Source: Prostheceraeus crozeri
Taxonomy: Eukaryota; Platyhelminthes; Polycladida; Euryleptidae
Direction of reading: 5' to 3'
NCBI GenBank assembly: GCA_907163375.1
Contig: CAJQUW010007129.1
Span: 1-64,000, forward strand
Length of the DNA: 64,000 nucleotides
The position numbers and the translations under genes were made by a program. Positions 25,092 through 64,000 of this stretch are shown piece after piece (the first letter of the stretch is position 1; each line of letters begins with the position of its first letter). The notes under the pieces are model-generated. The model ran no database searches, was not told the DNA's origin, and saw only the letters and a list, made by a program, of their open reading frames with translations.

Positions 25092-25194
25092 GCGAAAATG
25101 TGCAGTATGCAGAAAACAAGCACGACCCGAGTGTCGGCAGTGTGATGTAGGCTTTCACATCGATTGTTTTCCTACGTACCATGATAGACAGTAA
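25092..25194 (+). pseudogene. piggyBac transposase C-terminal remnant, 3' piece
   Basis: Resumes the frame of 22405-22487 and reads CAVCRKQARPECRQCDVGF, then HIDCFPTYHDRQ and TAA at 25192-25194. The CxxC...CxxC...H..C...YH spacing is the RING-like cysteine tail of piggyBac transposases and parallels CTKCNVGLC...YH in the nearby broken piggyBac. It shows the LINE landed inside a piggyBac gene. Confidence 0.6.
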
Positions 25195-27617: not shown

Positions 27618-27630
27618 TTAACCCATTAAG

Positions 27631-27653
27631 TCCTAGCGTGACCATATGGTCAC
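27631..27653. promoter_or_regulatory. Subterminal piggyBac repeat with 16-bp palindrome
   Basis: TCCTAGC followed by the palindrome GTGACCATATGGTCAC. The same motif occurs inverted near 28003-28025, ending GCTAGGA, and again in direct orientation near 30277-30299 with one changed base (CATGTGG). The repetition near both termini suggests a transposase-binding site; the role is inferred. Confidence 0.7.
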
Positions 27654-27811
27654 AACCACACTATTATATTAAAGTTGATCCAATTTTTTTATATGTTTGA
27701 ACAATTATCTTGTTCTCGCTTTAATAATATAGCAGAATACCCTGTTGTTTTAATTCACAGTATTTTCGATTGGCTGTCATCTCTTGTTTCGGTGGCGCTA
27801 AGTGAAATATC

Positions 27812-30041: not shown

Positions 30042-30433
30042 CATTCAGAATTGTGTTGAATCTTTGATAAGCTGACATTTTGATAATGAATAGATCTGAT
30101 AATAATTTTGTGTAACAAAGAAAATTATAGTTGCTATTCCTTTTGTTGATTATTGATAATCACCATTGTTCGAATTTTACCAGTTTCGTGATGAATAGTA
30201 AATTGTATTCATTGTATCAAGAAATGTAGTTTTGTTAATTACTTGCCATATTCAAAAGCAATATGTACCTCGTAAGTCCTAGCGTGACCATGTGGTCACA
30301 GGCTGCAGATGTAAAACTAAAGAAGCACCGGCATAATTTCAATCATAAATGCGCAAAGTAACCCCTAAGGATGCGTAACACAAAATATATTAGATTTCTG
30401 TGATGTAAAATAATTCGGGCATTAATGGGTTAA

Positions 30434-30899
30434 CTTTACCCTAACTGTTAACCTAATTAACAGTTTAATTAGGCATGTAATGGTCACAGTCATGAACGGG
30501 GCACCTTGCCGGCAGTCCCTGTCTCCTTTGGAGTGCGGTAACAGCTAGAGTCTTCCACAACTCTACGTTGCATCCACAAGATAAATTCACGTTCGTATCT
30601 AACTCTCCTCCCATTATAATCTGACTTTCATTCTTGAAGCAGAACAGTTGTTTCTGGGTAGTCAGGTTTCGTTCTTAGTGTTTGCTCAAGTCACGAGGAT
30701 TAGAACTTACTTGATTGGAACAATGACATCCTTATATATCCCTTTAGGGAAAATCGGAGCCTCTCTGATTGGCTGTTGGGAATTCCTTTGTTTAAAAAGT
30801 ATAGAAGTCCTAGCAGCGTACCAATTCTCATCAAAGGTTCTAATCCTCAAGTACCATGTTGTCAGCTATCTTATCTATATTATTCTAATCACATTGAAA
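30434..30899 (+). promoter_or_regulatory. Spacer with a possible promoter for the 133-residue ORF
   Basis: An inverted CCAAT box (ATTGGCTG, about 30769-30776) and a TTTAAAAAGTATA string at about 30790-30802 lie about 100 bp upstream of an ATG at 30900, spacing that suits an RNA polymerase II promoter. Nothing else is supported here. Confidence 0.3.
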
Positions 30900-31301
30900 A
30901 TGGAACGTATCACAGCACCTCCCACTTCTCCTGTTGAAAAGATGGAATCGCCATGCGAACCCAGAGTGTTGGTAAGAAGACCTGTAACTCCTGATCCAGA
31001 ATCATCAGAAGATGAAAGCGTGGTTCTAAGGAGGAGTGTCATCGAAACACCGGTGGAGGCCACCATAACCGTCAAGACGCGATGCGGAAGCCAGATCAGG
31101 AATGCGCCGAGGAAGGTACACTCCAAAAGAATAGCTGTCAGATTTGAACCACAAGAGAAGAACTTAACAACCGGGCTTGAGTTCAACATAATCGACCCAG
31201 ACACGCCTCGCCGCTGCCCTGGTGCCCCCAAAAAGACAAGAGTGTGTGTTCGCGTTGACCTGAAGAAACTGATTCCTTTCCCAAATATTGATAATATGTG
31301 A
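30900..31301 (+). CDS. Unknown 133-residue Pro/Ser-rich basic protein, copy 1
   Basis: I do not recognise this protein. From the ATG at 30900 it starts MERITAPPTSPVEKMESP, has an acidic PDPESSEDES patch near residue 40, and ends with a Lys/Arg-rich part. The frame is open another 84 codons upstream, but that part is hydrophobic and reads like promoter DNA, so I prefer the inner ATG behind a TATA-like box. It lies 470 bp beyond the piggyBac right end and is identical in copy 2. No signal peptide or known domain. It could be host, cargo or chance. Confidence 0.35.
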   Translation: MERITAPPTSPVEKMESPCEPRVLVRRPVTPDPESSEDESVVLRRSVIETPVEATITVKTRCGSQIRNAPRKVHSKRIAVRFEPQEKNLTTGLEFNIIDPDTPRRCPGAPKKTRVCVRVDLKKLIPFPNIDNM

Positions 31302-41362: not shown

Positions 41363-43966
41363 TACTTTACTTTACTTTAAGCGGCATATTCATTGCTGAA
41401 CTTCGGCCGACCCATTGGAGATGGCACGCCACAGTTTTCGCTCACGCGTTGCGCAGTTCAATTCGTACATGTTGAGTCCGGTCCATTTCATGATGTTGTT
41501 GACATACTGCGTCCTGGGCCTTCCTCTGCGCCGGTTGCCCTCCATGTTGCCTTGCAGCACAGTTCTCGTTAAAAGGCATCCTCCCTCCCTGCATTGATGA
41601 CCGTAGAAGGAGAGTTTCCTTTTCCGAATGTGTCGAAGTAACATAGGGGTAGTGGCCAGTTGCTCGAAGATGCTGGCATTCGTTCGGTGCTCTCTGTAAT
41701 TTATGCGCAACATTCTCTTCCAGAACCACATTTCGGCAGCTTCGATGTGTTGCTCGTCTGTAGTTTTCAGCGTCCATCCTTCCGCTCCATATGATAGAAT
41801 TGGCCACACAAGCGTCATCACTAATTTCATCTTGAGCTTTGTTGGTAGTGCCCTATCTGCCCATAGCTTGTTCAGTCTGGTCATCTTCGCCTTAGCCATA
41901 GCTATTTTCACACGGACGTCTTCTGTGCAACTTCCATCATTTTTCTTGATAGAGCCAAGATATTTGAAGCGATCGACCTCTGCAACAGTCTCAGCCCCAA
42001 CTGTGATTGTGCTATCTTCGTCACGTGTTGAACCGACTCGCATTACTTTTGTCTTCCTTGCATTTAGCTTGAGCGACCTCTCAACTCCTGAAGCATTTAC
42101 CTGGTCAACCATCTCCTGCATTTCACTCATGTTCTTGGCTATCAAAGCTGTGTCATCGGCATACCTGACATTGCTTATTTGTCTGCCTCCGATATTTATG
42201 CCAGCGTTCGTAAAATCGGTTTCTCTCATGATTTGCTCAGTATACAAACTGAAAAGATGCGGTGATAGAATACATCCTTGACGCACACCCTTTTTGATTG
42301 GAAATTGCTTGGTTCGGTCTCCGTTCCAGCGAATAACTCCTTGCTGATTGCAGTAGAGGGACTTTATCAGGTTGACGAGGTGATCAGGGAATCCAAAAGT
42401 AGACATGATATCCCAGAGCTGACCGTGGCTCACGCTGTCAAAAGCCTTGGAATAATCAATGAAAGTTATAACCGCTCCACATGACATGTCATTAACCTTT
42501 TCAATAATGACTTGTAGGGTTGCCAACATGTCTGCGGTGCCTCTGCCAATTCGAAACCCTGCTTGTTCATCTGGGAGTTCCTGTTCGATCTTCATGCGCA
42601 GGCGGTCCAGCAGTATATTGAGGAGGACTTTGCTAGCATGCGATATAAGCGCGATGGTGCGATAATTGCCACACTCTTTGGGATTGCCAGTCTTGTGCAG
42701 TAATACGAGTTCTTGCTCTTTCCAATCGTCTGGCCAACGTTCCGTTTCCCAAATCCTCACGCAAAGCTTGTGAAGACTTTTTGTGGCAAAGTCTCCAGCG
42801 AACTTGACGAGTTCCGCAGGCACATTGTCACAACCTGCAGTCTTGCCCATTTTCAGTTTCTTTACCACGTTCTGGACTTCTGCAAGCAGCGGAACAGGCT
42901 CCTTTTTTGCTGGAGGCGTAGTAACCAGCTCCTGATGAAAAACCGATGAAGTTGAACCGAAAAGCTGCTTAGCGTATTCTTCCCAACGCTTTAGAACCTG
43001 GTTGGGTTCTATGAGGGTTAGACCTGTGGAGTCATTGATTACACTTTGTTTTTCAGTAGCTGCTGGTTCAGTAAGTGCGGAGATTTTTCGAAAAAGTGCT
43101 TTGCCTTTATGCATTCTATCGAACTCGTCGATTTCAGCGCACTGTCGTTCTAGCCAGGTTTTCTTGTCTTTACGCAGGCTTTTCTTTATCTTCTTGTTCA
43201 GCTTTTTAATCAAAAGGCTATCTGAAACACGCCGAGCTTCTCTTCGTTCATGAATTAACTTGAGAGTCTCGTTGCCAATCCAAGAATCAGTTACTTTCCG
43301 CCTAGGGGCACGTCCTATGACATCGGTTGCAACCTCTTTTAAGGTATCAGCTATGTTTGACCAGAGATCATTCGGCTCCATCTCCGTAGTATCTGTCTCC
43401 AATAGCGCTGCAAATCGGTTGTTCGTTTCTGTTACGTATTGATCCCGGACTTCCGAATCGTTCAGTTTATTCAAGTTGAAACGGAATGGTTGACTACTTC
43501 TTTTCACACTGAATGCTTTCAATTGAACCTTTGAAACGACCAATTTGTGATCGGTATCACAGTCTGCACTTGGTTTAGTTCTGGCATCAAGTACATTGTT
43601 GCGCCATTTCTTATTTATCATCATATAATCGATTTGATTCCGGGTGCTTTGGTCTGGAGATGTCCACGTGAATCGTCGACGCTTGTGGTGGCTAAACTGC
43701 GTATTCAAAATGCAAAGATTGTTTGCGGTAGAGAAATCTGCTAACCGTTGACCTCTCTCGTTTCGAATTCCCAGACCGAAGCGACCAATTCCAGCAGAAG
43801 GTTCGTCTCCTTCACCAACCTTCGCATTGAAATCGCCCATCAGGATGCAGATCTCTCGACTCTTTACTTGTTCAACTGCTGATTGCAATTTCTCATAGAA
43901 GAGGTCAACAACTTCATCATCGTGACTAGTTGTAGGAGCATACCTGTATTACTGTTGTGGGCACAG
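41363..43966 (-). mobile_element. RTE-clade LINE, copy 2
   Basis: Duplicate of 22488-25091 with the same 12-bp flanking repeat (41351-41362 and 43967-43978). It came with the block duplication, not by a second insertion. Confidence 0.9.
41390..43888 (-). CDS. RTE-type endonuclease/reverse transcriptase, copy 2
   Basis: The 832-residue frame is identical to 22515-25013 apart from two residues I can see (Arg to Lys in DVRVKIAMAK, Ala to Val in IIEKVNDM). The same N-terminal endonuclease loss is present. Confidence 0.9.
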   Translation of the reverse strand: MQSAVEQVKSREICILMGDFNAKVGEGDEPSAGIGRFGLGIRNERGQRLADFSTANNLCILNTQFSHHKRRRFTWTSPDQSTRNQIDYMMINKKWRNNVLDARTKPSADCDTDHKLVVSKVQLKAFSVKRSSQPFRFNLNKLNDSEVRDQYVTETNNRFAALLETDTTEMEPNDLWSNIADTLKEVATDVIGRAPRRKVTDSWIGNETLKLIHERREARRVSDSLLIKKLNKKIKKSLRKDKKTWLERQCAEIDEFDRMHKGKALFRKISALTEPAATEKQSVINDSTGLTLIEPNQVLKRWEEYAKQLFGSTSSVFHQELVTTPPAKKEPVPLLAEVQNVVKKLKMGKTAGCDNVPAELVKFAGDFATKSLHKLCVRIWETERWPDDWKEQELVLLHKTGNPKECGNYRTIALISHASKVLLNILLDRLRMKIEQELPDEQAGFRIGRGTADMLATLQVIIEKVNDMSCGAVITFIDYSKAFDSVSHGQLWDIMSTFGFPDHLVNLIKSLYCNQQGVIRWNGDRTKQFPIKKGVRQGCILSPHLFSLYTEQIMRETDFTNAGINIGGRQISNVRYADDTALIAKNMSEMQEMVDQVNASGVERSLKLNARKTKVMRVGSTRDEDSTITVGAETVAEVDRFKYLGSIKKNDGSCTEDVRVKIAMAKAKMTRLNKLWADRALPTKLKMKLVMTLVWPILSYGAEGWTLKTTDEQHIEAAEMWFWKRMLRINYREHRTNASIFEQLATTPMLLRHIRKRKLSFYGHQCREGGCLLTRTVLQGNMEGNRRRGRPRTQYVNNIMKWTGLNMYELNCATRERKLWRAISNGSAEVQQ

Positions 43967-44069
43967 GCGAAAATGTGCAGTATGCAGAAAACAAGCACGA
44001 CCCGAGTGTCGGCAGTGTGATGTAGGCTTTCACATCGATTGTTTTCCTACGTACCATGATAGACAGTAA
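43967..44069 (+). pseudogene. piggyBac C-terminal remnant, 3' piece, copy 2
   Basis: Duplicate of 25092-25194 with the same Cys-rich tail and stop. Confidence 0.55.
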
Positions 44070-46493
44070 TCTTTTCTGAAAGCTACATGAAGAAAGAAGC
44101 TACAGTTCTAGGATTTTTATCACATTTTGTCTTCAATGAAAAAGATATGATCTGTACATTTTTCAATACATTCAAATATAATGTGACGTCAATATCTTCT
44201 AATAACACTAGACTATCAACTGAATTATTACCATAGAGCTTACTGAAACAATTATAGAAAGTTTTTGAAAAATCTGAAAAATTCGGATATTTACCATGGT
44301 CGATAATATAAAGTAGACATGAAACAAAGTATAAATGCAATTTTTGATAAAAGATTCTAGTCAAAACTTATTGAAAAATATTTGGTAAAACGTACGAAAC
44401 CAGATGAATATTTCTTTCAAAAATCCGGATGGCCATGGTCGACATATGTCGACTTTTTAAAATCTCGTATAATTTATAAATTATGAAAATGATTAGGTAA
44501 GGCAGACATTAAACAATGTAGAAATGCACTTTCTACATTTCAAAGTCATTCAAAAGCATTAGAAAAAAATTTGGCAAATAATGGGTTTTGATTTGCCAGC
44601 ATAGTTTAAAACGGTTTAAAGGTGGATGGATTGATATTTGCTGAGATATCTCGGTCAATTATCATTTGTCAAAAGCCCTCGGGCAATGCCCTCGCGCATT
44701 TTAACAAAATAAGTGAGCTCATTATTCCAGCAAATATCAATCTGTTCTCTTTTAGCCATTACTTAAGGCTTTTAGCCATAGAAATAGATAACAATAGAAT
44801 CTCTAGAACGGAAATGTAGCCTCGTACCGGTATAACACTTCCTACTTGCCCCTGCTCTCGCAGTTTCCGAGCTGAAAGTATTTAAATCAAAATCATCATC
44901 CGCTAGGAATATCAGTTAACTACATAAAGTAAACTAAGACCTACTATACAAAATGCAACTGGGATGAATAAATTTGTAATGAACTTTGAAGAAAAGAAAA
45001 TAAAATACATGCGAAGCTACAGTACAGGCACTGAACTTGCTAGAATCGACCTACAACGTCTCACCTGGAACTACTCCATGAAGAAAATGAAATAGGGAAC
45101 TAGACTTGTTATAAATGGCGCAATTGGTGACTAACTATTCAAGAAATTTAATCTACCTCTCAAGAGGACCGGTCTGTGTCCCATCATATTCGCAAACAGT
45201 TGTGACAAGTGTAATCTGTACACGACGGAAGATACTATCAATTACCTATTTCACTGAAGATGGGAAAGGAGATAATCATTCACGCTGTTACCTAACTTAA
45301 CATAGAAAATAAGCTAACCAAGTAATTATCAAAGCGTAGATCGTATAAACAAATTAAAAAAAGGAAGGGTAATAAATTCTGAAAGATAAGCTGCTGAAAA
45401 TGATTGGTGAAGTACGACTGTCATGGAATATTGAAATTGTAGCAAAAGAAAAAATAGTAAGAAGGAAAAATTGAATGAATGCATAAATAAATAAATGGAA
45501 GGAAATAAACAGCGCAGATGAAAATTATTAAGTATAGATCAAAATCAAAAAAATTAATAAATAAATGAAATAAATAGTCACATGAAACTAGCGTAAAATG
45601 AATTTGCAGACTGCAAAATAATGAGTGCAAGCGAATAATGTAATACATACTGAAAATAAAATAAAATAAAATTAGTCCTTAAAAGGACTGGTTTTGCGTT
45701 CGCTGTACCAGCTAGGAAGTCATCAGCAGGAATTCAGGTAGGATTCGTGTTTCGACTCCAATTCCTGAACACCTAGCTTAGAATTCCGAGAGTAAAACAG
45801 CCGCAATTTTTGAAAGTTGGTGTTGTCCACTCCTTCCCCTTCTTTGAAATGAAGCTACAATACTGAGACATCGAGGCTTGTGGTTTCTAGGAGACTTTAT
45901 AAAGTTTGCACTTGCCTCTTCTTTTCAGATGGGGAAATTAAGTAACAGCAGTTTTTATTTTTCTGATATGCTTTGTCCGGTCAGCAGTAGCTAGTTTTGC
46001 GGACGCACTGATAGTGGATACGAACCTGGATAGGAACACATGTTTCGAATTGCCAATGGATGCGAACATGGATAGGAACATGTTCCAAATTACCAATCGG
46101 AACATGTTTCGAACATGTAAATAGGAACCGCGTTCCGATTGACAACCGAATTGAGATCATACTTAATGATTCGGTACACTTATTTGTGTGTTGGGATCGG
46201 AACGGCCTGTTCCGAAATTGAATTAGAGTATGTGAATTAGAACAGGGATGCGAACATCTATTTCGGAACTTAAACAGATGTTTGTTTTGAGACTGCTTGC
46301 TCAAATGCGACAATTGTGACCATTGTGACTATGATGTCAATCTTTCTTGAATTTCATAAAACAGATTCTACAGATCAGGAATTATGTTAACAATCTTATA
46401 TTATTTGCTAATCAGAATCCCATTTACAGACTTTGTAAATAAAAAACAAGAGGTTTGCAATGTAAGTTTAATTAGGCATGGAAAATCACAGCA
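44070..46493. other. Spacer without a supported gene (copy 2 of 25195-27617)
   Basis: Same content as copy 1, including the inverted repeat at 44629-44742, with a handful of substitutions and three single-base indels. Confidence 0.6.
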
Positions 46494-46687
46494 TTAACCC
46501 ATTAAGTCCTAGCGTGACCATATGGTCACAACCACACTATTATATTAAAGTTGATCCAATTTTTTTATATGTTTGAACAATTATCTTGTTCTCGCTTTAA
46601 TAATATAGCAGAATACCCTGTTGTTTTAATTCACAGTATTTTCGATTGGCTGTCATCTCTTGTTTCGGTGGCGCTAAGTGAAATATC

Positions 46688-48917
46688 ATGGCTACATCGT
46701 CCAAGAGGAGAAAAACGTAAGTAACGCTTTTTCATTGCATTCTGAACACCTGAAAAACTAATCAGTGAAGCAACAGTCCCAGTGTATGTTACTATCACGA
46801 CCTATAAGGTGTTATTGGATATAGGAAATTTCGTTTGATGGATGATCTACCTAAGAACCAGTTATGTAATCATGATGTGACCATATGGTCACGCTAGGAC
46901 TTACGAGATACATACATCTCTGTACAAAGTTGAATTTTAACATGTTTACAATACCAAACTTCTCTTGGTTTTAAAAAAATTAAGAGGCAAAGTTAAGAAT
47001 TTGCATTGAATATGCATAAATGACGTGTTTGAAAATTACAACCCGGCAATATTTTCATGTTAAAAAAAGTTTGGCTGGGGAATCGAACCCGTGTCCTTAC
47101 GGATAGTGTATCTAACATCGATACCACCGCGCCACTCGCGCATCTGCTTGCTGTCATCTACTTAGACTGTCATATTGCTTTGCAGGTACACTGTTGATGA
47201 CGTTGTCGCTTTGGTGGAGCAAGATGAAATCGACGAGAATGACATTTTCATAGAGCCGCCTGCCGCAGCTGTTTTAACAGACGAAGATTCGGGTGATGAA
47301 GCGGATCGTCTGTCGGGAAACCAGCTACGTGCACAAGCGCATGTAGCATGCCTTGAAGACGAGGACGCAGGGTACAAATATGAATTCGACTTCGAGCTAT
47401 TTTCCAACATAGAAAAGTCTTTGAAGTGGTGTAGAAAGGACAATAAAGATAATATCCCCTTATTTCCAGAACCCAGTTATGATAGATACAGAGATTTTTC
47501 TCCGATCGAGCTATTCGAACTCTTTTTTGGTGATGAGATCATTGATCACATATGTGTTGAAACACAAACATATATTATGCAGAAAAATGAGCCTCATCTA
47601 CATTTTTCGAAATCGGAAGTTAAGACTTTTATTGGAATAATGATTCTCTCAGGTTACTATCTCAGGTCCTATCCAAATCGCAGGATGTTTTGGGAGAACC
47701 AGGACGATACCCGGAACTCCTTGGTATACCAAAGTATGAGGCGAAATCGTTTTGAAACTTTGATGACCCGAATTCACTTCGCAGATGATAGCATTATCGA
47801 TATGAATGATAAGTTATTCAAAGTGAGACCTTTGATCACACATCTAAACAGGAAATTTAGAGAACATTTTGTGCCCGAGCAGCATCTAAGCTATGATGAG
47901 TCCATGATCAGATATTTAGGATCTCATGGAATCAAACAGTTTATCGCTAATAAACCCATACGGTTTGGGTATGAATGTTGGTCCCTCAACTCTAGTAGTG
48001 GGTATCTTCTGTCTTTTGAGGTGCATCAGGGGAAGACAATGAAAATTGATGGAGAACAATATGGGAAATCTTTTGGAAAGGCAACAGCACCTTTATTTTC
48101 ATTCTTAGACGAACTGGAACGTTTTCAAAAGCTACCGTATCTTATATACTTTGATAACCTTTTCACTAGTCTGAAAACCTTTGTTGAGCTCTCTAATCGA
48201 GGATGCGGTGGTACAGGTACTTAGAGAGAAAACAGAATTCCGAAATCATGTCCAATTCGCCCAAAAGATTTTTTGGCAAAGTGTGATAGAGGCACAATTT
48301 CTTTTGCTTCAGATAGTAAGACAAACATCGTTATTGCACATTGGAAGGACAATAAGGTTGCTACAGTAGGTTCTAATTGTCACTCAATACACCCTATAGG
48401 GGAATGTCGTAGATATTGTCGTCAATCGGGTTAGAAAATATCAGTTTCATGTCCAAACGTAATCAAATCATACAACCAATGGATGGGTGGAACTGATCGA
48501 ATAGATCAAAACGTCTCTATTGTATCGGACAAATATCAAAGGAAAAAAAGTGGTATTTCCCTATTTTTTCATGGTTAATTGATGTGGCCATTCAAAATGC
48601 ATGGCTACTTAAGTAGCTTTATTCATCGGGGTATTCACAGAAATTGCCCACTTTTAGAGTTTCGTCGGAGAATTGCGCTTTTTATTTTAAACCTAAATGG
48701 TGTTAAACCATCAGGTGGTGGTCGACCACCACTTCGGGAAAGAGGATTATCCGCGGATGTACGTTTTGATAATGTAGGACACTATGTACGAGTTCCCACT
48801 GGTTCAAAACGTCGACGATGCCAAGGAAATAATTATTCCTCAGTAATTAGATCCGAATGTACTAAATGTAACGTTGGTTTGTGCATTCCTTACTTCGAGA
48901 ATTATCATAAACCATGA
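46688..48917 (+). pseudogene. piggyBac transposase, broken, copy 2
   Basis: Same exon 1 (46688-46716), intron and exon 2 as copy 1, with the same TAG (48222-48224) and both frameshifts. It has one additional stop: the CAG before KISVSCPN is TAG at 48432-48434. A Pro to Leu change (LDELERF) is also seen. The extra stop arose after duplication or is an allelic difference. Confidence 0.85.
47072..47141 (-). other. tRNA-like sequence, copy 2
   Basis: Identical to 28196-28265, with the same A-box-like and B-box elements. Confidence 0.45.
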
Positions 48918-49775
48918 CATTCAGAATTGTGTTGAATCTTTGATAAGCTGACATTTTGATAATGAATAGATCTGATAATAATTTTGTGTAACAAAGAAAA
49001 TTATAGTTGCTATTCCTTTTGTTGATTATTGATAATCACCATTGTTCGAATTTTACCAGTTTCGTGATGAATAGTAAATTGTATTCATTGTATCAAGAAA
49101 TGTAGTTTTGTTAATTACTTGCCATATTCAAAAGCAATATGTACCTCGTAAGTCCTAGCGTGACCATGTGGTCACAGGCTGCAGATGTAAAACTAAAGAA
49201 GCACCGGCATAATTTCAATCATAAATGCGCAAAGTAACCCCTAAGGATGCGTAACACAAAATATATTAGATTTCTGTGATGTAAAATAATTCGGGCATTA
49301 ATGGGTTAACTTTACCCTAACTGTTAACCTAATTAACAGTTTAATTAGGCATGTAATGGTCACAGTCATGAACGGGGCACCTTGCCGGCAGTCCCTGTCT
49401 CCTTTGGAGTGCGGTAACAGCTAGAGTCTTCCACAACTCTACGTTGCATCCACAAGATAAATTCACGTTCGTATCTAACTCTCCTCCCATTATAATCTGA
49501 CTTTCATTCTTGAAGCAGAACAGTTGTTTCTGGGTAGTCAGGTTTCGTTCTTAGTGTTTGCTCAAGTCACGAGGATTAGAACTTACTTGATTGGAACAAT
49601 GACATCCTTATATATCCCTTTAGGGAAAATCGGAGCCTCTCTGATTGGCTGTTGGGAATTCCTTTGTTTAAAAAGTATAGAAGTCCTAGCAGCGTACCAA
49701 TTCTCATCAAAGGTTCTAATCTTCAAGTACCATGTTGTCAGCTATCTTATCTATATTATTCTAATCACATTGAAA

Positions 49776-50177
49776 ATGGAACGTATCACAGCACCTCCCA
49801 CTTCTCCTGTTGAAAAGATGGAATCGCCATGCGAACCCAGAGTGTTGGTAAGAAGACCTGTAACTCCTGATCCAGAATCATCAGAAGATGAAAGCGTGGT
49901 TCTAAGGAGGAGTGTCATCGAAACACCGGTGGAGGCCACCATAACCGTCAAGACGCGATGCGGAAGCCAGATCAGGAATGCGCCGAGGAAGGTACACTCC
50001 AAAAGAATAGCTGTCAGATTTGAACCACAAGAGAAGAACTTAACAACCGGGCTTGAGTTCAACATAATCGACCCAGACACGCCTCGCCGCTGCCCTGGTG
50101 CCCCCAAAAAGACAAGAGTGTGTGTTCGCGTTGACCTGAAGAAACTGATTCCTTTCCCAAATATTGATAATATGTGA
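49776..50177 (+). CDS. Unknown 133-residue Pro/Ser-rich basic protein, copy 2
   Basis: Same protein as 30900-31301. The frame upstream of the ATG differs by one residue (Leu to Phe), outside the predicted protein. In this copy the downstream sequence is unique DNA leading to the multi-exon gene and the Polinton, so this is probably the original context. Confidence 0.35.
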   Translation: MERITAPPTSPVEKMESPCEPRVLVRRPVTPDPESSEDESVVLRRSVIETPVEATITVKTRCGSQIRNAPRKVHSKRIAVRFEPQEKNLTTGLEFNIIDPDTPRRCPGAPKKTRVCVRVDLKKLIPFPNIDNM

Positions 50178-54263: not shown

Positions 54264-54294
54264 TGACGTCATAGGATGATAAAAAATATATATA
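54264..54294 (+). promoter_or_regulatory. Candidate promoter of the Polinton polymerase (CRE-like site and TATA)
   Basis: TGACGTCA at 54264-54271 and TATATATA at about 54287-54294 lie 40-70 bp upstream of the polymerase ATG at 54332. Confidence 0.45.
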
Positions 54295-54331: not shown

Positions 54332-57300
54332 ATGGTTGTCTGTTCTAAATGTGGAAAAACGTTTACTCTTAATGGTAGTTTGCAACGCCATGAAAAGCTT
54401 TGTAAGTTCGGAAGAACTTATCAGTGTAGGAAGTGTCCATATGAAGCGAAACGGCAGGATAGTCTAAAGCGACACAATCTACTCTGTGATAAGCAACCAA
54501 GTAACTATAATTTAAATTCAAATCCTCGAAGTATATCAGCTAATGATAGTCAAATACCCTAATCTAGTGCTGCTAAATCAACGTCTAGACATATACCAAT
54601 CAGCGCTTCAAATAATAGTTTGATCTTTATGCAATGCTGCTCCCGCTGTGGTAAAACGTATAATTCTATAAGCAAATTCCGTCAGCATATGAATGTGCAT
54701 AATACAAATAGTGAGATGAATATTCAAAATAATCATGGAACTGCAAGTCTCAGCGAAAGCGCGCTGAACGGTCATGCTCGTGTATACGACATCACACCAT
54801 CAGCACACACAGTAGATATAACTCCCTTTTTATTAAGTATGCGATCTATATTAGAGAACTTAGTGTCAAACCTTCTAGAAAATTTTCAACTACGTGGTCG
54901 TCTGGTAGCAAAAATTCGTTATGTGCGATCAAATCCTCAGGAAGATGAAACGTTTCTCGCACACTTTACTTCATCATCCACAAACTATATTTATGACCAT
55001 GATACATGGCTCCAAGATAACTTAAATAGTCTCTCAAGTCATATTGAAGCCTTTGCAAATAAGGGTAGCAATTGGGTTATAGATGAAATACTAAATATAG
55101 AATTCAATGTTATTACTACCCCATTACTTTCTGGTGGAGAAGTATTTAATCTACCAAAGAGTCTGAAAGATTCGAAGGCTGTAATTAATGTACATTCAAA
55201 TGCAAATGACTGTTTCCTATATTCAGTTCTATCAATGCTACATTACAATGATGTATCATATTCTAGGAATGAGATAAAATCATGTAGTAAATGGACATCT
55301 GAACTAAATATGAATGACATCTCTACACCCGTATCAATTAAAGATATTCCTAAGTTTGAGAAAAATAATGACATTAAAATCAACATTCACCTTTACGAAA
55401 AAGGACTAAAAGGTGTTCGATATAGCAGCAACTTTATTGGTAAACGAACTGTGAATATACTACTAATTATAAACAATGAACGTGCACACTATTGGGGAAT
55501 CAGAAACTATCAAGATTATATAGAAAAATAAATAGAAGATACAAACATTTCTGCGATCGATGTACCCAATCGTTTACATATAAGACAACTTTGGAGCGAC
55601 ATTATCAATTTTGTGTTCGTGGAAAGGCACAAATAGAAAGAATGCCTAAACAACTAGAGGTAAGCACAAGTAGCATGGAATATCAATTAAGTCTTCCTTT
55701 AGTTGTTTATGCAGATATAGACTGCTACATCGATAATAAAGTACATAAACCGGCAGAAGTTGGTGTTTATCATGTTTGGCATAAAGCTCTCCAGTCCAGA
55801 TTTGAAAACAAATATTATGTCTTCAAAGGAGAGAATTGTATTATGGACTTCTTGGATCACCAAGAAAAGAAAGCTCAAAACTTATATGATAATCAGCGTG
55901 CAAAAAGCCGGCAACCAATGTCTCTTTCTTCTGATGAAGAAGAAAAACATAAAAATGTAAATAATTGTAATAAATGTAAAGCTGCGTTTAGTGATGATTG
56001 CATAAAAGTAAGAAATCACGACCATTTAACAGGAAGATATAGACAAACAATATGCAGTAAATGCAATCTTCGATTAAAATTAAATAGGCGGGAACTATCC
56101 ATCTTCTTCCATAATTTTAAGAATTATGATAGTCATATCGTTTGTTATAAAGCAATTGGAAGGAGGGAGTCATAGAAATTGGAAGTAGTAGCAGCAACAG
56201 CTGAAAAGTATATAACTCTATCTGCCAGCGTCCCTGTGAACGAATACAAAGGAAAAGCAATCTACTTCAAGTTAAAATTCTTAGATTCTTATCAATTTTT
56301 AAGTGCATCATTGAGTGAGTTAGCAAGAGGATTTCAAGTTTATGAACATGTAGAGAAACTAAGAAATGAATTTCCCCTGATAACAGATGATATTCTTTAT
56401 CAAAAGGGAGTGTTTCCCTACTGTTATTTCAAAAGTCTAAATACATTGTCAGAAAAATGTCTGCCACCACAATGTAAATTTTATGATGATCTCACTCGTG
56501 AACATTGTTCAGATGAAGAATATGAGCACGCTAGTAATGCGTGGTTTGCTTTCAATTGTAACAATCTTGGTGATTACATGCTTGCATATCTGAAACTGGA
56601 TGTGTCATTACTGGCAGATATTTTTGAAGTTTCTAGGTCACTAAGTCAAAGTGAAGATGAAGTAGATCCTGTACATTTCGTTAGCCTTCCACATCTTAGC
56701 TTTACTTCAGCTTTAAATTTGACATCTAATGATCCTCCACACTACATGCAAGATGAAAGTATGCATAATCTTTTCGAAAGGGGAATAAGGGGTGGAATGA
56801 CTTTTGCGAACATTCACAGAGCATGTGCACGCATTTCGGAATTACAAAATAATACAAATGAAAGTCGTCACTTATCTTACATTGATGTCAATAACCTTTA
56901 CGGTTCTTCACTCAGTAAGAGTCTACCACATTCAAATTTTAGATGGTTGAATGATAGTGAAGTAAGCTTTTTTTTAAACGAAGAAAATATTCAAGCTATC
57001 GATGATGATGGTGAAATTGGCTTTATTTTTGATTTGAACATGGAATATCCTGCAAACATACATCATGACACCGCCGATTTCCCATTGGCGCCAGAGATGC
57101 AGACCGTAGAGCACAATATGTTCTCAACTTATATGAAGGATTTACATAGGAAAATAAGACCAGACACTAAATTCAGTTCAACTAAAAAACTCTTGCTTCA
57201 TCAATTCAATAGGGAAAATTATGTTGTACACTATTCAATGTTAAATTTTTATTTATCCATGGGTATGAAAATCACAGAAATTCACAACGGTATAAAGTTC

Positions 57301-58229
57301 ACACAAAAGCCATGGTTGAGAAAGTACATTGATATGAATTCACAAAAGAGAGCTCAATCAAGTACCAACTTTGAAAAGTCATTTTATAAGTTGAAAAATA
57401 ATTCTTTATATGGTAAAACAATGGAAAATGTAAGACGAAGGAGAAAATTCAAATTAGTAAACAGCGTGGAACAATGTCGAAAATTATCAAATCATCTTCT
57501 CTATGTACAGCATAAGATATTTGATGAAGATCTAGTTGGTATGGAAATGTATAAACCTTCAATAATGTTGAATAAATTGATTTATGTTGGTCAGGCAGTA
57601 CTTGACTATAGCAAATTGGAAATGCACCAGTTATACTACAATGATTTGAAAAGATGTCCACCGATAAATAGAACGCGGCTTTGTGGAGGTGATACCGATA
57701 GTTTTTCCTATGTTTGTACACCTCACCATCTGTCCGCCTGGAGGATGTACTGCTATATTTTGGGGAAAAATTTGACTCTTCAAACTATGACAGTCATCAC
57801 CGACTATACTCAACTACAAACAGAGTCAGATTAGGTTGTTTTAAGGATGAGTGTGCGGGAAAGTTGCTTGAGGAAATGATCTTGCTAAAACCAAAAATTT
57901 ATTCAATGAAATATCTAGATTCAACTTGTGATAGCATCAAGCGGGCAAAAGGAGTGCAGAGAGCTGCAGTTAAAAAATTACATCATAATGATTATAGGAC
58001 TGTGTACTACAGTGAGAAAGATACAAGTGAGGAAATGACAATTATAAATTCTAAAAATCACGTAGTCACTACAAAATCATTTAGAAAGCGAGGACTTTCA
58101 CTTTGGGAGGATAAGCGCTGTTGGTTAAATAAAAATCTATCTCTACCATATGGACACTATAGTTTAGGACTTCTCCCACCTTCAAAGAGAAGAAGATTCC
58201 TTCCTGCTACAGGTGACGTAGAATTTTAA
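54332..58229 (+). pseudogene. Polinton protein-primed DNA polymerase B with N-terminal zinc fingers, broken in four places
   Basis: Three C2H2-type fingers lie N-terminally (CSKCGKTFTLNGSLQRHEKLC, CRKCPYEAKRQDSLKRHNLLC and CSRCGKTYNSISKFRQHMNVH), each beginning CxxC. A Polinton-typical region with INVHSNANDCFLYSVLSML and IPKFEKNNDIKINIHLYE follows, then a fourth finger near 55555. The exonuclease shows VYADIDCYID and, later, FHNFKNYDSH. Polymerase motifs are SYIDVNNLYG (A, about 56880), KLKNNSLYGKTMEN (B, about 57400) and GGDTDSFSY (C, about 57690). Breaks: TAA 54560-54562, frameshift near 55500, in-frame TAG 56173-56175, frameshift near 57720. The element's replicase; inactive as read. Confidence 0.9.
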
Positions 58230-58462: not shown

Positions 58463-58831
58463 TTGAAAACATGCCTCAGAACATGGAAATTAAATGACTC
58501 ACAAAGCATTCACATAACAAATTCTAAGAAAGTAGTCTTTCCTCACTTAATAACAAATAGTGGGGGAAAGCATAGTGGCGTTCGCATTAGCCTTGACGCA
58601 TTGTCTTCACTGAAAGAATTCGCTGATCTGATTGATAACCATAAGACACGGATGAAGATTCCACTCGATCAAAAGGTATGGATAAAGTGTGACTCTACCG
58701 TCAACCTATATGTCTGTTCACCAAAGAGAGAAGATATTGACTATCGATTTTTCCGTTTCAGTGACGTCACATGGAGAAACTTTACAAAAGAGATACTACC
58801 ACATTTGATTTCATTCATTAAGGATGGATGA
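58463..58831 (+). CDS. Small Polinton ORF, possible PC4-like (transcription coactivator p15 fold) protein
   Basis: About 120 residues. KKVVFPHLITNSGGKHSGVR leads into ISLDALSSLKEFADLI, which recalls the PC4 strand-turn-strand ending in a GISL...W..L helix; a second such pattern is VNLYVCSPK ... FRFSDVTWRNFTKEILPHL. PC4 folds bind single-stranded DNA and help transcription start. The match is weak and by eye. The frame has no in-frame ATG near its start (it opens with TTG); an ATG at 58471 is one frame off, so an indel near 58485 is possible. Its TGA overlaps the ATG of the next ORF (ATGGATGA at 58824), as in compact viral genomes. Confidence 0.4.
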   Translation: MKTCLRTWKLNDSQSIHITNSKKVVFPHLITNSGGKHSGVRISLDALSSLKEFADLIDNHKTRMKIPLDQKVWIKCDSTVNLYVCSPKREDIDYRFFRFSDVTWRNFTKEILPHLISFIKDG

Positions 58832-59147
58832 CATCAAGCGGATGGAAGTCGTGAATCGCATGTTAACTACAAAAGTAAACTCAAAACTCAATCTTCAAGA
58901 AATTGAGCGGAACATTCCCAATCGAAAGCAATGGTTATTAATAAAACACAAGATGAAGCCGACAACGAATCTACATCTGGGAAGACCCTCAACGTTAACA
59001 TGGAGGATACAGAGGAAGGATAAATATGTGACTATCCTATTCTTTCCAAATGGAACAATCCAGTGTGTTGGTGGCTTCACTGATGGTGATCTACCATATC
59101 TACATTCTACGCTGGAAAATTTACTTCGAGACTCATTATCTGAATGA
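58824..59147 (+). CDS. TBP-like protein, first-repeat-like half
   Basis: 107 residues. VNSKLNLQEIERNIPN matches the first strand and helix of a TBP repeat (V-x-x-KL-D/N-L-x-x-I), and WRIQRKDKYVTILFFPNGTI followed by QCVGG matches the R-x-R/Q-x(n)-T-x-L-I-F-x-x-G-K-x-x-C-T-G core, with the DNA-intercalating Phe of the IFxSG turn kept (ILFFPNG). The spacing between these parts is longer than in canonical TBP (an extra 10-15 residues around RKQWLLIKHKMKPTTNLH). It starts at an ATG overlapping the previous stop and ends at TGA 59145-59147 in frame with the next ORF. It would act in the nucleus by bending promoter DNA; that function is inferred. Confidence 0.6.
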   Translation: MDDIKRMEVVNRMLTTKVNSKLNLQEIERNIPNRKQWLLIKHKMKPTTNLHLGRPSTLTWRIQRKDKYVTILFFPNGTIQCVGGFTDGDLPYLHSTLENLLRDSLSE

Positions 59148-59150
59148 AAA

Positions 59151-59438
59151 GTGAAGACAATGACTGTGCTATGTGAATTGAACCATCATTATGATTTTCG
59201 TAAAGTCACATCATCAAATAGTCTCACTTATGAAGTGGAACTATTTCCAGCAGCACAGATGACTAACTGGCACCCATATCATGTTCATGTGTTCCATAAT
59301 GGAAAGGTTGTGATAACCGGCATTAAAGACCTAAATGATGTTCCTCCCATCCTATGTGATTTGAGAAAAATATTTGTGAAATCTACATTGCAGATATGTA
59401 AACAACTAGAAAAGAACTGTACATTTGTGAATACATAA
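59151..59438 (+). CDS. TBP-like protein, second-repeat-like half
   Basis: Same frame as the preceding ORF, starting one codon after its TGA; the first ATG is at 59160. About 92 residues: VLCELNHHYDFRKV, then TYEVELFPAA and HVFHNGKVVITGIKDLNDVP, closely following the second repeat of TATA-binding protein, where YEPELFPG and FVSGKVVLTGAK hold the intercalating phenylalanines; both are present here. A final helix (PPILCDLRKIF) fits the end of the fold. A nonsense mutation in one two-repeat gene, stop readthrough, or two subunits that pair are all possible. Confidence 0.65.
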   Translation: MKTMTVLCELNHHYDFRKVTSSNSLTYEVELFPAAQMTNWHPYHVHVFHNGKVVITGIKDLNDVPPILCDLRKIFVKSTLQICKQLEKNCTFVNT

Positions 59439-59512: not shown

Positions 59513-59526
59513 AATAAAGCTTTATT
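59513..59526. terminator. Palindromic bidirectional polyadenylation signal
   Basis: AATAAAGCTTTATT is a perfect 14-bp palindrome giving AATAAA on both strands. It sits exactly where the plus-strand block (ending 59438) and minus-strand block (ending 59525) converge, and the protease stop codon TAA overlaps its minus-strand copy. Confidence 0.75.
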
Positions 59527-59986
59527 ACAAAACAGATTCAATATACTTTGTACAAATTACATCATTTTTATAGCAGTCTTTCGAAAAAAGTTGTAAAACA
59601 CTTTTGCAGTTATTTTTCAATGGTCTCTCGTTTATGAAATAGAGCACATAACCACCGCACATTAGAGATACATTGCTTTGGAGTGGAAACGATGTAACTT
59701 TCTTAGTCGTCCAGGAGAACCTGTTCATCCATAGTGCAATGTCATGTAAGCGAGGTAGATTAAGAGAGTCAAAATATTCGGCCACTTTATAGCGATTGAT
59801 GTACACTGCAACCCAATGTTTTCCAGGGAGATTGTTGCTGTCCGTATTGATGATGAGCGAACAAGGATAGAAAGGAATTGAATTAGGTAAATTATCTCTA
59901 GAAAAGACATCAAGAAATATTGTCTTGGAGTAGGGATGAGCATTCCCCATTTTCCTCAAGATTTCGGTGTTGCTTAGGTTACTCAT
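59525..59986 (-). CDS. Polinton adenain-like cysteine protease
   Basis: 153 residues, intact. GKHWVAVYI supplies the catalytic His, EYFDS the acidic residue, PLQSNVSLMCGGYVLYFI the oxyanion Gln and the nucleophile Cys, in the order and spacing of adenovirus-type (C5/ULP-like) proteases. Such enzymes cut capsid precursors during particle maturation. The ATG overlaps the capsid stop as ATGA (59983-59986), suggesting coupled expression, and the TAA overlaps the shared polyadenylation signal. Confidence 0.85.
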   Translation of the reverse strand: MSNLSNTEILRKMGNAHPYSKTIFLDVFSRDNLPNSIPFYPCSLIINTDSNNLPGKHWVAVYINRYKVAEYFDSLNLPRLHDIALWMNRFSWTTKKVTSFPLQSNVSLMCGGYVLYFINERPLKNNCKSVLQLFSKDCYKNDVICTKYIESVL

Positions 59987-61257
59987 CTCTGATAGCTGAC
60001 AGTTACGTCTCGCATTCTCGTTATTTCAACTTTGCTATCATAAATGAGGCAAGTAATTGTTTTCTTCAAAGGTGACTCAAATGATACCTCTAGTCGTAGA
60101 TTACCAGGCTTTGTAACTCCTACGCTTTCACCACCTAGATCTGAATCTGCTGTGAGATTGTATATAATGAAGAAATAAACATTTTTATACATATCCATCG
60201 TAATTCCATTTGAATCATCTGTGTTAAACATGCTCAGTACAGTGAAAGTAGAACCATATTCACGTGCAAATTTGCCCTCTATAAAATTAGGCTCATAAGC
60301 TTTGCAAGCAACAAATTTTCCATCCTGATAGAGTGCTAGTTTACTAACGTTAAAGTGTTGGAAATTAAATGGATTCTTTTCAAAAGCACCAATAAATGAC
60401 TCATTTTGCACAAATGTGATATACACCGCCTTCGGCATCGTGGTGGGAAAAAGATTTGGGTAGGCATGAGGGGATGATCCCGCACCAATTGTGAAGTTTG
60501 TTAACACACTGTGATTAACTGGATATATTGCATTGCTTTTCCTCAATCCTGTCGCATGCTCGTTGATGACTGACGGGTTCATTGTTACTCTCCTTACATT
60601 GAGCACGGCACTACTTATGTTGATTTGATAGTTTGTAGCTCCAAAAGCCATTAACGCGAACTCAGGATTTGCACGAATAAATTTTATTTGCATTTTAACC
60701 TGTGATAGTAGATATCTAGATTGACGAAAGAAATCAAGATAGACAGGTCCTTTCAAGTATAATTCTTTTGAATCTGCTGTCAATTCCATTCGTTTTTTTT
60801 AAACCTCCACTTGAAACCTCATCAAATTTCCCTTGCTGATCATCATACAAGCCGGCAACTTGCAAGTGTGACTGTTTAGCTTGTTTCTGAAATTGTGTCA
60901 TTGTATTTATCTATGCTCCATAGGGATTTGCTCGATCCCCTCCTTCAATCTTTTGTCATTCAATACTAAATACACATCTGAGAATAGACTGGCAATAGGA
61001 AGATTTGTCAATCCCACTTCATCCTTAGTTGAATCAATATTGGTACCATCAGTCTTTTTAATTTGTATACACAATTCTAAATCAATGGATTGACAGTCAA
61101 TGTAATCTTGAGGATTAGCAGGTATATCAAACTGAATAGGCTGTTGGCTACCATCGATATTTGTTGTAGGGACTATGTCTACAATAGTTGAGGTAATAAT
61201 GTCAGTTTGATGAGGCGGTGAATCAAAGAAATACAAAGCCGAATTGATACTCTGCAT
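59983..61257 (-). pseudogene. Polinton major capsid protein (double jelly-roll), two frameshifts
   Basis: The N-terminal frame (61257-60907) has the family's start (SALYFFDSPPHQTDI), QFDIPANPQDYIDCQSIDLE and LFSDVYLVLND. The C-terminal frame (60789-59983) has VYLDFFRQSRYLLSQVKMQI and FIRANPEFALM, followed by strands and a basic end. Between them about 110 bp is open in a third frame (around AGLYDDQQGKF). So one shift lies near 60905 and another in the run of eight T near 60797-60804. The protein forms hexon-like capsomers. Because one break is in a homopolymer, sequencing error is a fair explanation. Confidence 0.75.
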
Positions 61258-61341: not shown

Positions 61342-61749
61342 TCACACGACGTCTTGATTTAGAACGTGCTGCTCTGGTGGGCTTTTACTTTTCCTACGCC
61401 TTTGCTTAGTAACTCGGCCTGATCCAACTTGTCTTGACTTCCTACGTTTCTTCCGGACTGTACACCTCGTCTTTGTTAAATCATCTAATGCGTCTATGGC
61501 AGATTGCTGTGCACACAATTTCATGGATTCACCGATATCCTCCCCTTGAAGTGCATCAGCTGCAACATTTGCACCAAAGTCTAAAGCTCTGTTTCCAACC
61601 CGCTTCATGAATGGTACGCCATACTTTTTGAGTGTTGGGAGAACCATACGTCTTAGTGCACCGAATATGCCTCCTCCAACTTGCCGTCTACCTCCAACAA
61701 ACAAGGGATAGCCGCTCTGATAGGATGGACCACTGTAAATGCCTGACAT
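61342..61749 (-). CDS. Small basic virion-core-like protein (adenovirus pX/pVI-like)
   Basis: 135 residues. Gly-rich N-terminus with GGRRQVGGGIFGALRRM, an amphipathic stretch VLPTLKKYGVPFMKRVGNRA, then ANVAADALQGEDIGESMK, and a strongly basic tail (TKQRRRKSKSPP). This organisation is seen in Polinton and adintovirus proteins likened to adenovirus core or membrane-lytic proteins. It lies between the two capsid genes on the same strand. Role in DNA condensation or membrane passage is inferred. Confidence 0.6.
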   Translation of the reverse strand: MSGIYSGPSYQSGYPLFVGGRRQVGGGIFGALRRMVLPTLKKYGVPFMKRVGNRALDFGANVAADALQGEDIGESMKLCAQQSAIDALDDLTKTRCTVRKKRRKSRQVGSGRVTKQRRRKSKSPPEQHVLNQDVV

Positions 61750-61792: not shown

Positions 61793-63369
61793 TTAATCTC
61801 GTGTCCTCATGTGTAGTGTCGAAACAGTAACACCACAGAATGGTACTACTTCACCTATATCATCATGAATTGATATGTCAATTCTATTGATGACATTTCT
61901 GCTCATTGGTACATACATTGTGTTAATAATTTCTCGATGGATTAGTTGCTTCCTCACGGATGAGAGCGGAAATGTGCGCAAAAGTGGGGCTTCAATGTCA
62001 CCAACCCTTGCATATTCAATGATGTTACAATAGACGTACAAGTTCTTATATCCCGCTCTAATGATGGTGTTGTATCGCCTGTTGATGTACCTTCATAAAT
62101 AGTTGATTTTGAGAATCCCAATGTGGTCGTGAACACGCTATCCAGCTTGCTAAGAGAGTTCTTCCCTACCTTTAGAATCATGCGTTTCTTATGTGGGTCA
62201 TAAGAAAAGTGATATTCATCTGCATCAAGGTAATCTACACCAAACTCATTTAACTTTGTGCACAATTCAGATGGCGTTTTCAAGCTTTCAATGTTCAAAT
62301 TAACTCTTTTTACCAGTTCACTAGAAGTAGTCAATTCATCACCCACAATGTCCTCGCTGTATACGTGGATATCCCATGAAAAGTTTGCTGATGCTTTGAG
62401 TTTAGAAGAGGATAAATGAACCTTGTATGTATCATTTAATTCTGTCAGCAAAGGTGCGCTTTCAAGGCCTTTAAACATCCCAAACATTTCAGATCCAAAT
62501 TCAATAACAGCGGACTCAGACCATTCCAATGGTGTCTTTTTAGTAAAAACAAGAAATTCTACCTCCGTTTCAACAGTAAATAAAGTTACTTTCTCTTTCT
62601 TATATTCACAAGTCATTAAAGTTTCTGGCACTGATCTTTGAATCTTTCTTGCAACGTCTTCAACACTTCTAATAACTTCAAATTGATTCTTTACTCGGAT
62701 GCTCCTTTTTTGTAATGCATACAATGGCACGATTCTACATCGAAAATAAGTGACTTTCCTCTCCGAATTCCACCCACGACCATTATACCAATACCTTGAT
62801 GAGAATGTTGTTCTGGAATACCCCAAAGTATGAATCAAATCCTTACCCAATACAAGAAGAACATGCTTCCCTTCTTTCAACAATTTTGTTGACCCCTTTA
62901 CGACTAGTCTGTAGAATTTATTCAAAGTCAGCTTGAAGAGATCATTTATTTGTTGAACCATTCTACCGATTTCCTTTTCTGTATCTTGCAAGCTCATTGT
63001 GGTAACTTTAGAATCAAAAGTGGACGTTGCAAATGCCTTTTGAATTTTAATCATGTTTTGGACAGATGGTAGAGATGTTGAAAAAGGATGTAAGGTTAGA
63101 TGATGAAAAGCCCATGTACTATGTAGCCTATTTTGAAATATGCGAAAGCAATCATCTTTCTCTCGCACTTCTTTATGTAATTCAAAATAGTTGTTTTTTT
63201 TTAGCAAACTGATGTCGTTGTAATAAGTAATTTCATTTAGAGCAACTTCATGGGGTCCGTCCAGAGTTATTTGATTAGCGAATTCAACAGAGTATTGAGA
63301 TGGTCTGTTGCCTGGGAATATCTTTGGGTTGCTGTTGCTTGGAAGAATGATGTTGAAGTTAGTAGACAT
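61793..63369 (-). pseudogene. Second Polinton structural protein (minor capsid/penton candidate), one frameshift
   Basis: Starts at ATG 63369 with FNIILPSNSNPKIFPGN, then NQITLDGPHEVALNEITYY, the N-terminal signature of a conserved Polinton structural protein. The frame runs to near 62040, where a shift moves the C-terminal part (VYCNIIEYARVGDIEAPLLR ... INRIDISIHDDIGEVVPF) to another frame ending at 61793. About 520 residues in total. I assign it to the minor-capsid/penton class by gene context and beta-rich pattern; the exact class name is uncertain. Confidence 0.55.
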
Positions 63370-63409
63370 GTTGACCTCATGTATGTAAGAAGTCACATGT
63401 TACATTACC

Positions 63410-64000
63410 TCAAAAGCTACGAGTTTCTCCCACCTCCACATTTTGTAGATCCTGGTGCGTTATCCAGCTATTGAGTGAATCAGGATACCCTTTCCATTTA
63501 ACTAGATATTTCCTTTGATTGCCATGACTTTTCTTCCTGATTATTTTATCAATCATATACACCTCTTCACTTCTGTCTACTACTTGCAATTCATATGAGT
63601 AAAATTTTCCTTCAATTGGATTATCATGGTAATCTATCAATTTGTACATGATGGGTCTAAATTTTCTATTTACTTCATCTACAAAAAACTCTTCTTCAGT
63701 CCAATTAGGTAGATAACCCTTCTCAAATGTAGACTTAACCTTCGAAATCCGAAGTCTATCACCAACATTTATTTTCTTTTCATTGGAAATGTTTTTCGCT
63801 TTCTTATCATACAATCGAAGCCATACATCCATTGTATTATCTGGGGTAACATCAATTGGTCGCATCTTAATAATACGCTGATAGCTTTCATTGTAATTCT
63901 TAACAAATTTCTGCAACTCATCTGGCCAAACATGTGTATTTTTTGCAGCAAAATAGCGCCATATTTTCGTTTTCAATGTGCGATTGAACCTCTCAGCCAT
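63410..64000 (-). CDS. Polinton integrase, C-terminal part with chromodomain (runs off the window)
   Basis: 196 residues, N-terminally cut by the window edge. It begins at the end of the catalytic core (AERFNRTLKTKIWRYF, with the third catalytic Glu), then the linker and SH3-like region (NVGDRLRISKVKSTFEKGY), and finishes with a chromodomain: YMIDKIIRKKSHGNQRKYLV, then KWKGYPDSLNSWITHQDL. Such c-integrases insert the element; the chromodomain may guide it to marked chromatin. It lies 41 bp upstream of the next minus-strand gene. No stops are seen in the visible part. Confidence 0.85.
   Translation of the reverse strand: MAERFNRTLKTKIWRYFAAKNTHVWPDELQKFVKNYNESYQRIIKMRPIDVTPDNTMDVWLRLYDKKAKNISNEKKINVGDRLRISKVKSTFEKGYLPNWTEEEFFVDEVNRKFRPIMYKLIDYHDNPIEGKFYSYELQVVDRSEEVYMIDKIIRKKSHGNQRKYLVKWKGYPDSLNSWITHQDLQNVEVGETRSF

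Follow-up and report, generated by a model that had tools for sequence, protein, structure and literature searches.

The DNA analysed here (the window) is a stretch of 64,000 nucleotides from the polyclad flatworm Prostheceraeus crozeri (assembly GCA_907163375.1, contig CAJQUW010007129.1, positions 1 to 64,000, forward strand). It carries part of a Polinton, and two open reading frames (ORFs) of this element were confirmed by sequence comparison to be the halves of one gene for a TATA-binding protein (TBP), native to the Polinton and split by a stop codon. The gene family has two TBP repeats in order, with the TBP fold for repeat 1. It is present in hundreds of copies in the host genome, in four lineages (A to D) that form one clade, and the ratio of nonsynonymous to synonymous substitution rates (dN/dS) between lineages is below 1. 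It occupies a fixed place beside the genes for a family B DNA polymerase (PolB), a protease and capsid proteins in lineages A, B and D, and beside PolB in lineage C. Polintons are thought to rely fully on host transcription. The two halves in the window are as follows.

58824-59147, + strand: first TBP repeat (N-terminal lobe), 107 amino acids; matched by Pfam TBP and an archaeal TBP profile; ends at the stop that splits the gene
59151-59438 (open stretch from 59148), + strand: second TBP repeat (C-terminal lobe), 95 amino acids; matched by Pfam TBP and by repeat 2 of TBPs in the PDB

The first-pass annotation, made from the letters of the window, had likened these adjacent same-frame ORFs to repeats 1 and 2 of TBP, in that order. 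This was borne out, as Pfam TBP (PF00352) matched each of them separately. Half 2 scored 31.1 bits (E 2.1e-7), above the curated cut-off of 22.9 bits, and half 1 scored 22.6 bits (E 9.3e-5), 0.3 bit under it. The NCBIfam TBP models matched half 2 (nine rows, best 1.8e-5) and left half 1 unmatched. When the sequences of the PDB were searched, half 2 led to TBP repeat 2 (best E 2.3e-4), and half 1 had no match. A profile was also built from 72 of 80 fetched archaeal TBP loci and used to scan every six-frame stop-to-stop segment of at least 30 amino acids in the window (1141 in total). Only the two TBP halves reached E ≤ 1, half 2 at 2e-5 and half 1 at 1.1e-3, the best single stretch of the latter being at just 0.19. 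Among 5000 shuffles of either half, none equalled the real score with any of three models; the margin for half 1 was thin (12.1 bits with the repeat-1 model, against 11.9 for the best shuffle). By itself, half 1 gives modest evidence of TBP identity. The matter is settled because intact relatives match Pfam TBP (10 of 10 and 5 of 5 in the two sets tested). Significant TBP profile matches were obtained with Pfam, for the window and the intact relatives, and with the archaeal profile.

A single stop codon separates the two halves in the window, and the second half of this copy runs beyond the usual end of the family. Judged against its relatives, the split is a defect of the window copy, common to at least one other copy (L116; loci are numbered with the prefix L). 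The PolB and capsid genes of the window are broken as well, and the window copy is therefore a decayed element. The pair of ORFs described in the first-pass annotation is not the natural form of the gene, which is uninterrupted in most relatives.

The structure was modelled from Polinton sequences only. The model matched TBP structures, firmly for repeat 1, in which the order of strands and helices was that of cellular TBP. The half-saddle fold, proposed earlier as a check, was accordingly recovered for repeat 1 of an intact relative, while repeat 2 was modelled with low confidence. Intact relatives aligned with PDB TBPs across both repeats, showing two tandem repeats in one protein. Identity to cellular TBP was about 15-25%, the N-terminal lobe was diverged, and lineage D has a 14-residue insert within repeat 1.

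The first-pass annotation had counted at least three of the four DNA-intercalating phenylalanines as kept. In the alignments it was exactly three of four, across the lineages. The first one (in PKRF of cellular TBP) is replaced by proline in all four lineages. This proline stands mostly in a G-R-P motif (GQP in L094, DRP in L098 and L099), and three lineage C copies lack the stretch in question. Other TBPs vary at the intercalating phenylalanines too, so that the missing residue does not bar membership by homology. The C-terminal stirrup reads YETELF, YEPELF or YEVELF in nine intact Polinton rows and the window, and YExELFP is identical in six rows from four lineages (alignment A5). According to the sections consulted of Ravarani et al. 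2020 (PMC7221094), glutamates in the C-terminal part of TBP contact TFIIB. Both of these, as we matched them ourselves to the position names of Ravarani et al., are present in nine of nine aligned Polinton rows and in half 2 of the window. Likewise, 18 of the 19 A-C copies in which the second repeat is shown keep both, the exception being L101, with aspartate at the second.

The host genome (2.05 Gb) was searched for further copies in two ways. With Pfam TBP, the best 150 of 10,982 candidates were scored, and all of those listed were above the cut-off. By our reading, four of them are host TBP and TLF/TRF2-like genes; an internal stop was counted by eye in nine of the 150, one host TLF-like row included. 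With half 2 of the window, the best 150 of 9,877 candidates all had E ≤ 3.1e-57 and at least 91% identity, 149 of them being loci other than the window. The window lineage scores 46-55 bits against Pfam TBP per whole protein, usually as two stretches, whereas the rows of the Pfam list are single stretches, down to 43.3 bits. On contigs common to both lists, the places compared by eye differ. Since both the bit-score pattern and the places differ, the two lists should be distinct. Together they give a minimum of about 290 Polinton TBP loci in the host genome, spread over four diverged lineages. What we take to be host TBP exons and a TLF/TRF2-like gene lie at L082 (G000:C3829) and at L081 and L083 (G000:C9306), and they point to a bilaterian host.

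From the Pfam list we chose 20 stretches of at most 10 kb, belonging to lineages A (three), B (nine) and C (eight). Each of the 20 holds a TBP ORF together with at least one homologue of the Polinton proteins of the window. PolB is present in 18, while integrase, capsid and protease were found in the other two, L095 and L097. In 15 of the 20 copies both repeats read through as one ORF; this ORF is split by a stop in L100, and its first part is lost or shifted in L103-L106. L108 carries two TBP genes. In lineages A and B the gene order is PolB, capsid-type genes, an upstream ORF and TBP, followed on the opposite strand by protease, capsid and integrase. In lineage C, TBP is convergent with PolB. 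When the lineage C stretches were searched with the window's proteins, PolB and its N-terminal neighbour were found, and no capsid, protease or integrase; the label 'Polinton' for this lineage rests on PolB.

The window itself belongs to lineage D, of which 12 distinct copies were examined (L120 and L114 being one locus). Nine of them have an unbroken TBP ORF, namely six of L110-L118 together with L119, L121 and L122, and in L116 the gene is split where the window copy is split. Four 10-kb stretches of this lineage share the gene order of the window. The window is 92.8-96.5% identical to the D copies over about 968 bases (one of them over 675 only). The TBP genes of L117, L118 and L121, on different contigs, are identical over 582 bases; lineage D is therefore young and has spread recently. 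Conserved homologues in other Polintons, on which the first-pass annotation had made its reading depend, do exist: uninterrupted two-repeat genes were found, all in the same host genome. No relative outside it came from scans of viral contigs, in which half 2, one piece each of capsid and PolB, and alignments A1 and A5 served as queries.

dN/dS was computed by the method of Nei and Gojobori. Between lineages it was 0.19-0.47 where dS was finite, and within lineages 19 of 27 pairs lay at 0.20-0.50. A tree was made from nine Polinton TBP rows, 12 archaeal TBPs and the host TBP, in which the nine Polinton sequences fell on one side of a branch with support 100/100. On this tree, the Polinton TBPs of the four lineages are one clade, separate from the host TBP. 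The branch leading to them is long (1.37), and the tree program issued a long-branch warning; the tree points to no particular donor.

The DNA before the TBP gene was then inspected for promoter words. A consensus TATA word, TATAAAAG, stands 42-46 bases ahead of the TBP start (or, in copies where no start was recognised, at the equivalent position) in 17 of the 20 A-C copies (two of three in A, nine of nine in B, six of eight in C). These 17 are among the 30 occurrences of TATAAAAG in 198,124 bases, both strands counted. The word overlies Tyr-Lys-Arg codons of the upstream ORF. By lineage codon usage, and if codons are independent, TAT AAA AGG would occur in all three lineages with a probability of 1.6e-4. 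Transcripts of the element that start about 30 bases past TATAAAAGG before the TBP gene would fit the promoter reading. Another TATAAAAG, with conserved surroundings, was seen in seven of eight lineage C copies (L092:637, L093:9321, L102:9301, L103:9388, L104:647, L105:9356, L106:672), some 135 bases ahead of the start of another ORF in those copies in which one was found.

A different word, resembling a cAMP response element (CRE), precedes the TBP gene of the window.

58762-58769, + strand: TGACGTCA (CRE-like), 62 bases before the TBP start

A second TGACGTCA lies at 54264, 68 bases before the PolB start. The window contains five against 0.9 expected, and three of the five are outside the Polinton. 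In relatives of lineage D the word again precedes both PolB and TBP (at 79 and 4589 in L119, at 36 and 4543 in L121), the distance to the two starts in this lineage being 62-68 bases. No promoter word common to all genes of the element was found by eye and by a scan for TATA words.

The TBP gene is overlapped by the upstream ORF, a family present in all four lineages.

58463-58831, + strand: upstream ORF of the window (alignment A3)
L090:4303-4902, L096:4565-5224, L093:5120-5866 and L121:4154-4801: upstream ORF in relatives, overlapping the TBP gene

In relatives with the long ORF the overlap, in another frame, is about 200-340 nucleotides; the window copy is shortened and overlaps by 8. Inside the TBP gene the upstream ORF stays open for 101, 108, 112 and 65 codons (a single copy from each lineage, A to D in order), lengths that were reached by 0, 1, 2 and 15, respectively, of 5000 synonymous-codon shuffles. 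As the overlap exceeds the expectation from codon shuffling, the upstream ORF probably represents a genuine second gene. A further, related ORF precedes it in lineage B (L096:4177-4551). The family had no relative in Pfam or the PDB: a Pfam scan of 10 members gave only Nudix_hydro, in two of them (best 0.015), and the best entry of the PDB profile search was uS10, at 0.22. The coactivator PC4 was considered as a candidate and dropped, as neither the Pfam scan of the 10 members nor the PDB profile search gave a PC4 match. The single-sequence model was uninformative (predicted local distance difference test, pLDDT, 41.6). In PHROGs, the upstream ORF came closest to an uncharacterised family of DNA-binding proteins, at 0.33, and neither TBP half had a match there.

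Taking these results together, we favour, with moderate confidence, the view that the Polinton TBP binds promoters and brings host TFIIB and RNA polymerase II (Pol II) to the genes of the element. The kept TFIIB-contact glutamates, and the TATA box in three of four lineages, lend indirect support to the idea that it directs the element's own promoters. The protein would be made inside the host nucleus, in which Polintons rely on the Pol II of the host. Its underside would bind and bend element promoters through three of the four intercalating phenylalanines, and its C-terminal stirrup, with both glutamates, would recruit host TFIIB and hence Pol II. The altered N-terminal lobe may release it from the regulators of host TBP. 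In lineages A-C, the TATA box would let host TBP start the TBP gene, and the element's own protein could then take over its expression or reinforce it. A more specific scheme, which we put forward tentatively, is an early-to-late switch: host TBP would start the TBP gene through its TATA box, and the element TBP, having the contact to host TFIIB and lacking the regulatory lobe of the host protein, would then run the element genes outside TFIID control, from a gene that evolved in an overlapping frame inside a second conserved gene.

Several observations weigh against the promoter-binding view. Copies are near-identical within a lineage, so that the TATA evidence amounts to three lineages and not to 17 events. 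No TATA box stands at the corresponding position in lineage D, and most of the remaining element genes examined are without one. Repeat 2 of the model is poorly predicted, with pLDDT mostly below 50. Between lineages dS is saturated, being infinite for 3 of 15 pairs, and a single repeat alone reaches a dN/dS of 0.72; the remaining pairs within lineages are at 0.57-1.23, and one is at 4.06 on a dS of 0.004. Finally, the viral and phage collections searched gave no relative.

The same features have to be weighed for other roles. The protein might act mainly against the host, as a decoy that ties up TFIIB or core promoters, so diverting transcription from the cell, and does not choose element promoters. 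We judge this improbable. The TFIIB-contact glutamates would be kept in such a decoy as well, and most element genes do have no common promoter word that could be found; yet the retention of three intercalating phenylalanines suggests selection for DNA binding, and a general block of host transcription would presumably harm a vertically inherited element too. It is also rather unlikely that the protein has left transcription and become an architectural protein that bends DNA during replication or packaging. TBP-type domains do serve different purposes in other proteins, and both the diverged N-terminal lobe and the loss of the first phenylalanine would agree with such a change, but pure bending would not need the TFIIB-facing YExELFP, which is invariant in the six rows of alignment A5.

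Two readings suggested by the interruption itself are in effect refuted. Accidental capture of a piece of the host TBP or TLF gene by the element, followed by its degeneration, would explain the broken window copy, but not the hundreds of copies in four lineages, many of them uninterrupted; moreover, host TBP stands apart on the tree, and the host TBP and TLF-like exons sit elsewhere. That the halves are naturally separate half-TBP proteins acting as a dimer would account for the two ORFs, split at the same place, in the window and L116. For the family as a whole it fails on the lineage D relatives that read as one ORF (9 of 12 distinct copies) and on the frame of at least 194 found in about 130 of the best 150 half-2 rows (counted by eye, the meaning of that column being our own understanding).

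The Polinton protein resembles cellular TBP (PF00352; eukaryotic and archaeal) in its two repeats, three of four phenylalanines and both TFIIB glutamates. It differs in being encoded by a mobile element, in the change of the first phenylalanine to proline and in the diverged N-terminal lobe. TBP-like genes are already known in large DNA viruses. In the parts of PMC7221094 consulted, viral TBPs keep the DNA-binding positions and diverge at the contacts to TFIIB and regulators, and several viruses own a TFIIB. As in these large DNA viruses, a genome of viral type encodes a TBP of its own, in which most DNA-binding positions are kept; the difference is that the Polinton TBPs retain both TFIIB glutamates. 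No TFIIB domain was present in the 10 Polinton ORFs scanned, a subset of their ORFs. Mirusviruses, large plankton viruses related to herpesviruses, have a TBP in 59% of genomes (PMC10132985, from the portion consulted). They are thus another DNA virus group with a frequent TBP, likened here by description only, and they are not Polintons. The vertebrate Polintons/Mavericks (PMC8097293, main text) share the core of PolB, protease, capsid genes and integrase, and the words 'TATA', 'TBP' and 'transcription' are absent from the main text of that survey. No report of a Polinton TBP was met in the literature searched, with partial coverage, including the accessible parts of PMC10132985, PMC10675990, PMC12220804, PMC8097293 and PMC7221094. 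If a general transcription factor is conserved over hundreds of copies in four lineages, some Polintons would select their own promoters in the manner of large DNA viruses. The finding bears on the relation between Polintons and giant viruses, and on the way in which these elements become active within a genome. Many diverged natural TBPs without host duties would also be material for testing which surfaces of TBP matter.

The other Polinton genes of the window are the following.

54332-58229, + strand: PolB gene, broken into several pieces; DNA_pol_B_2 E 4.9e-16 on 56179-57831
59525-59986, - strand: protease, which we take to be adenain-like; Peptidase_C48 E 0.036, under the cut-off; homologues at the same place in A, B and D
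59983-60789, - strand: capsid gene, second piece, presumably the major capsid gene; homologues found by tblastn next to TBP in A, B and D
60907-61257, - strand: capsid gene, first piece, parted from the second by a break
61342-61749, - strand: small basic ORF, conserved between the capsid and integrase genes; homologues in relatives
61954-63396, - strand: second capsid-type gene, presumably penton; tblastn homologues in A, B and D
63410-64000, - strand: integrase end with chromodomain, cut by the window edge; Chromo PF00385 E 3.3e-10; homologues in A, B and D

The TBP gene sits between PolB, upstream on the same strand, and the protease, downstream on the other strand. The DNA_pol_B_2 match is to the protein-primed type of family B DNA polymerase that marks a Polinton. 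In the relative L121, PolB is a single ORF of 1315 amino acids whose first methionine aligns to position 54332 of the window. A Polinton is expected to encode a double-jelly-roll capsid protein and a retrovirus-type integrase. The capsid-type genes of the window had no Pfam match. Of the integrase, the window holds the chromodomain end only, the catalytic part and the right end of the element lying past its edge; longer homologous ORFs are present in relatives of A, B and D.

Elsewhere in the window, a long direct duplication was observed (22515-31301 and 41390-50177, offset about 18.9 kb), in which the same ORFs are repeated; we take these to be LINE-type, piggyBac-type and other ORFs.
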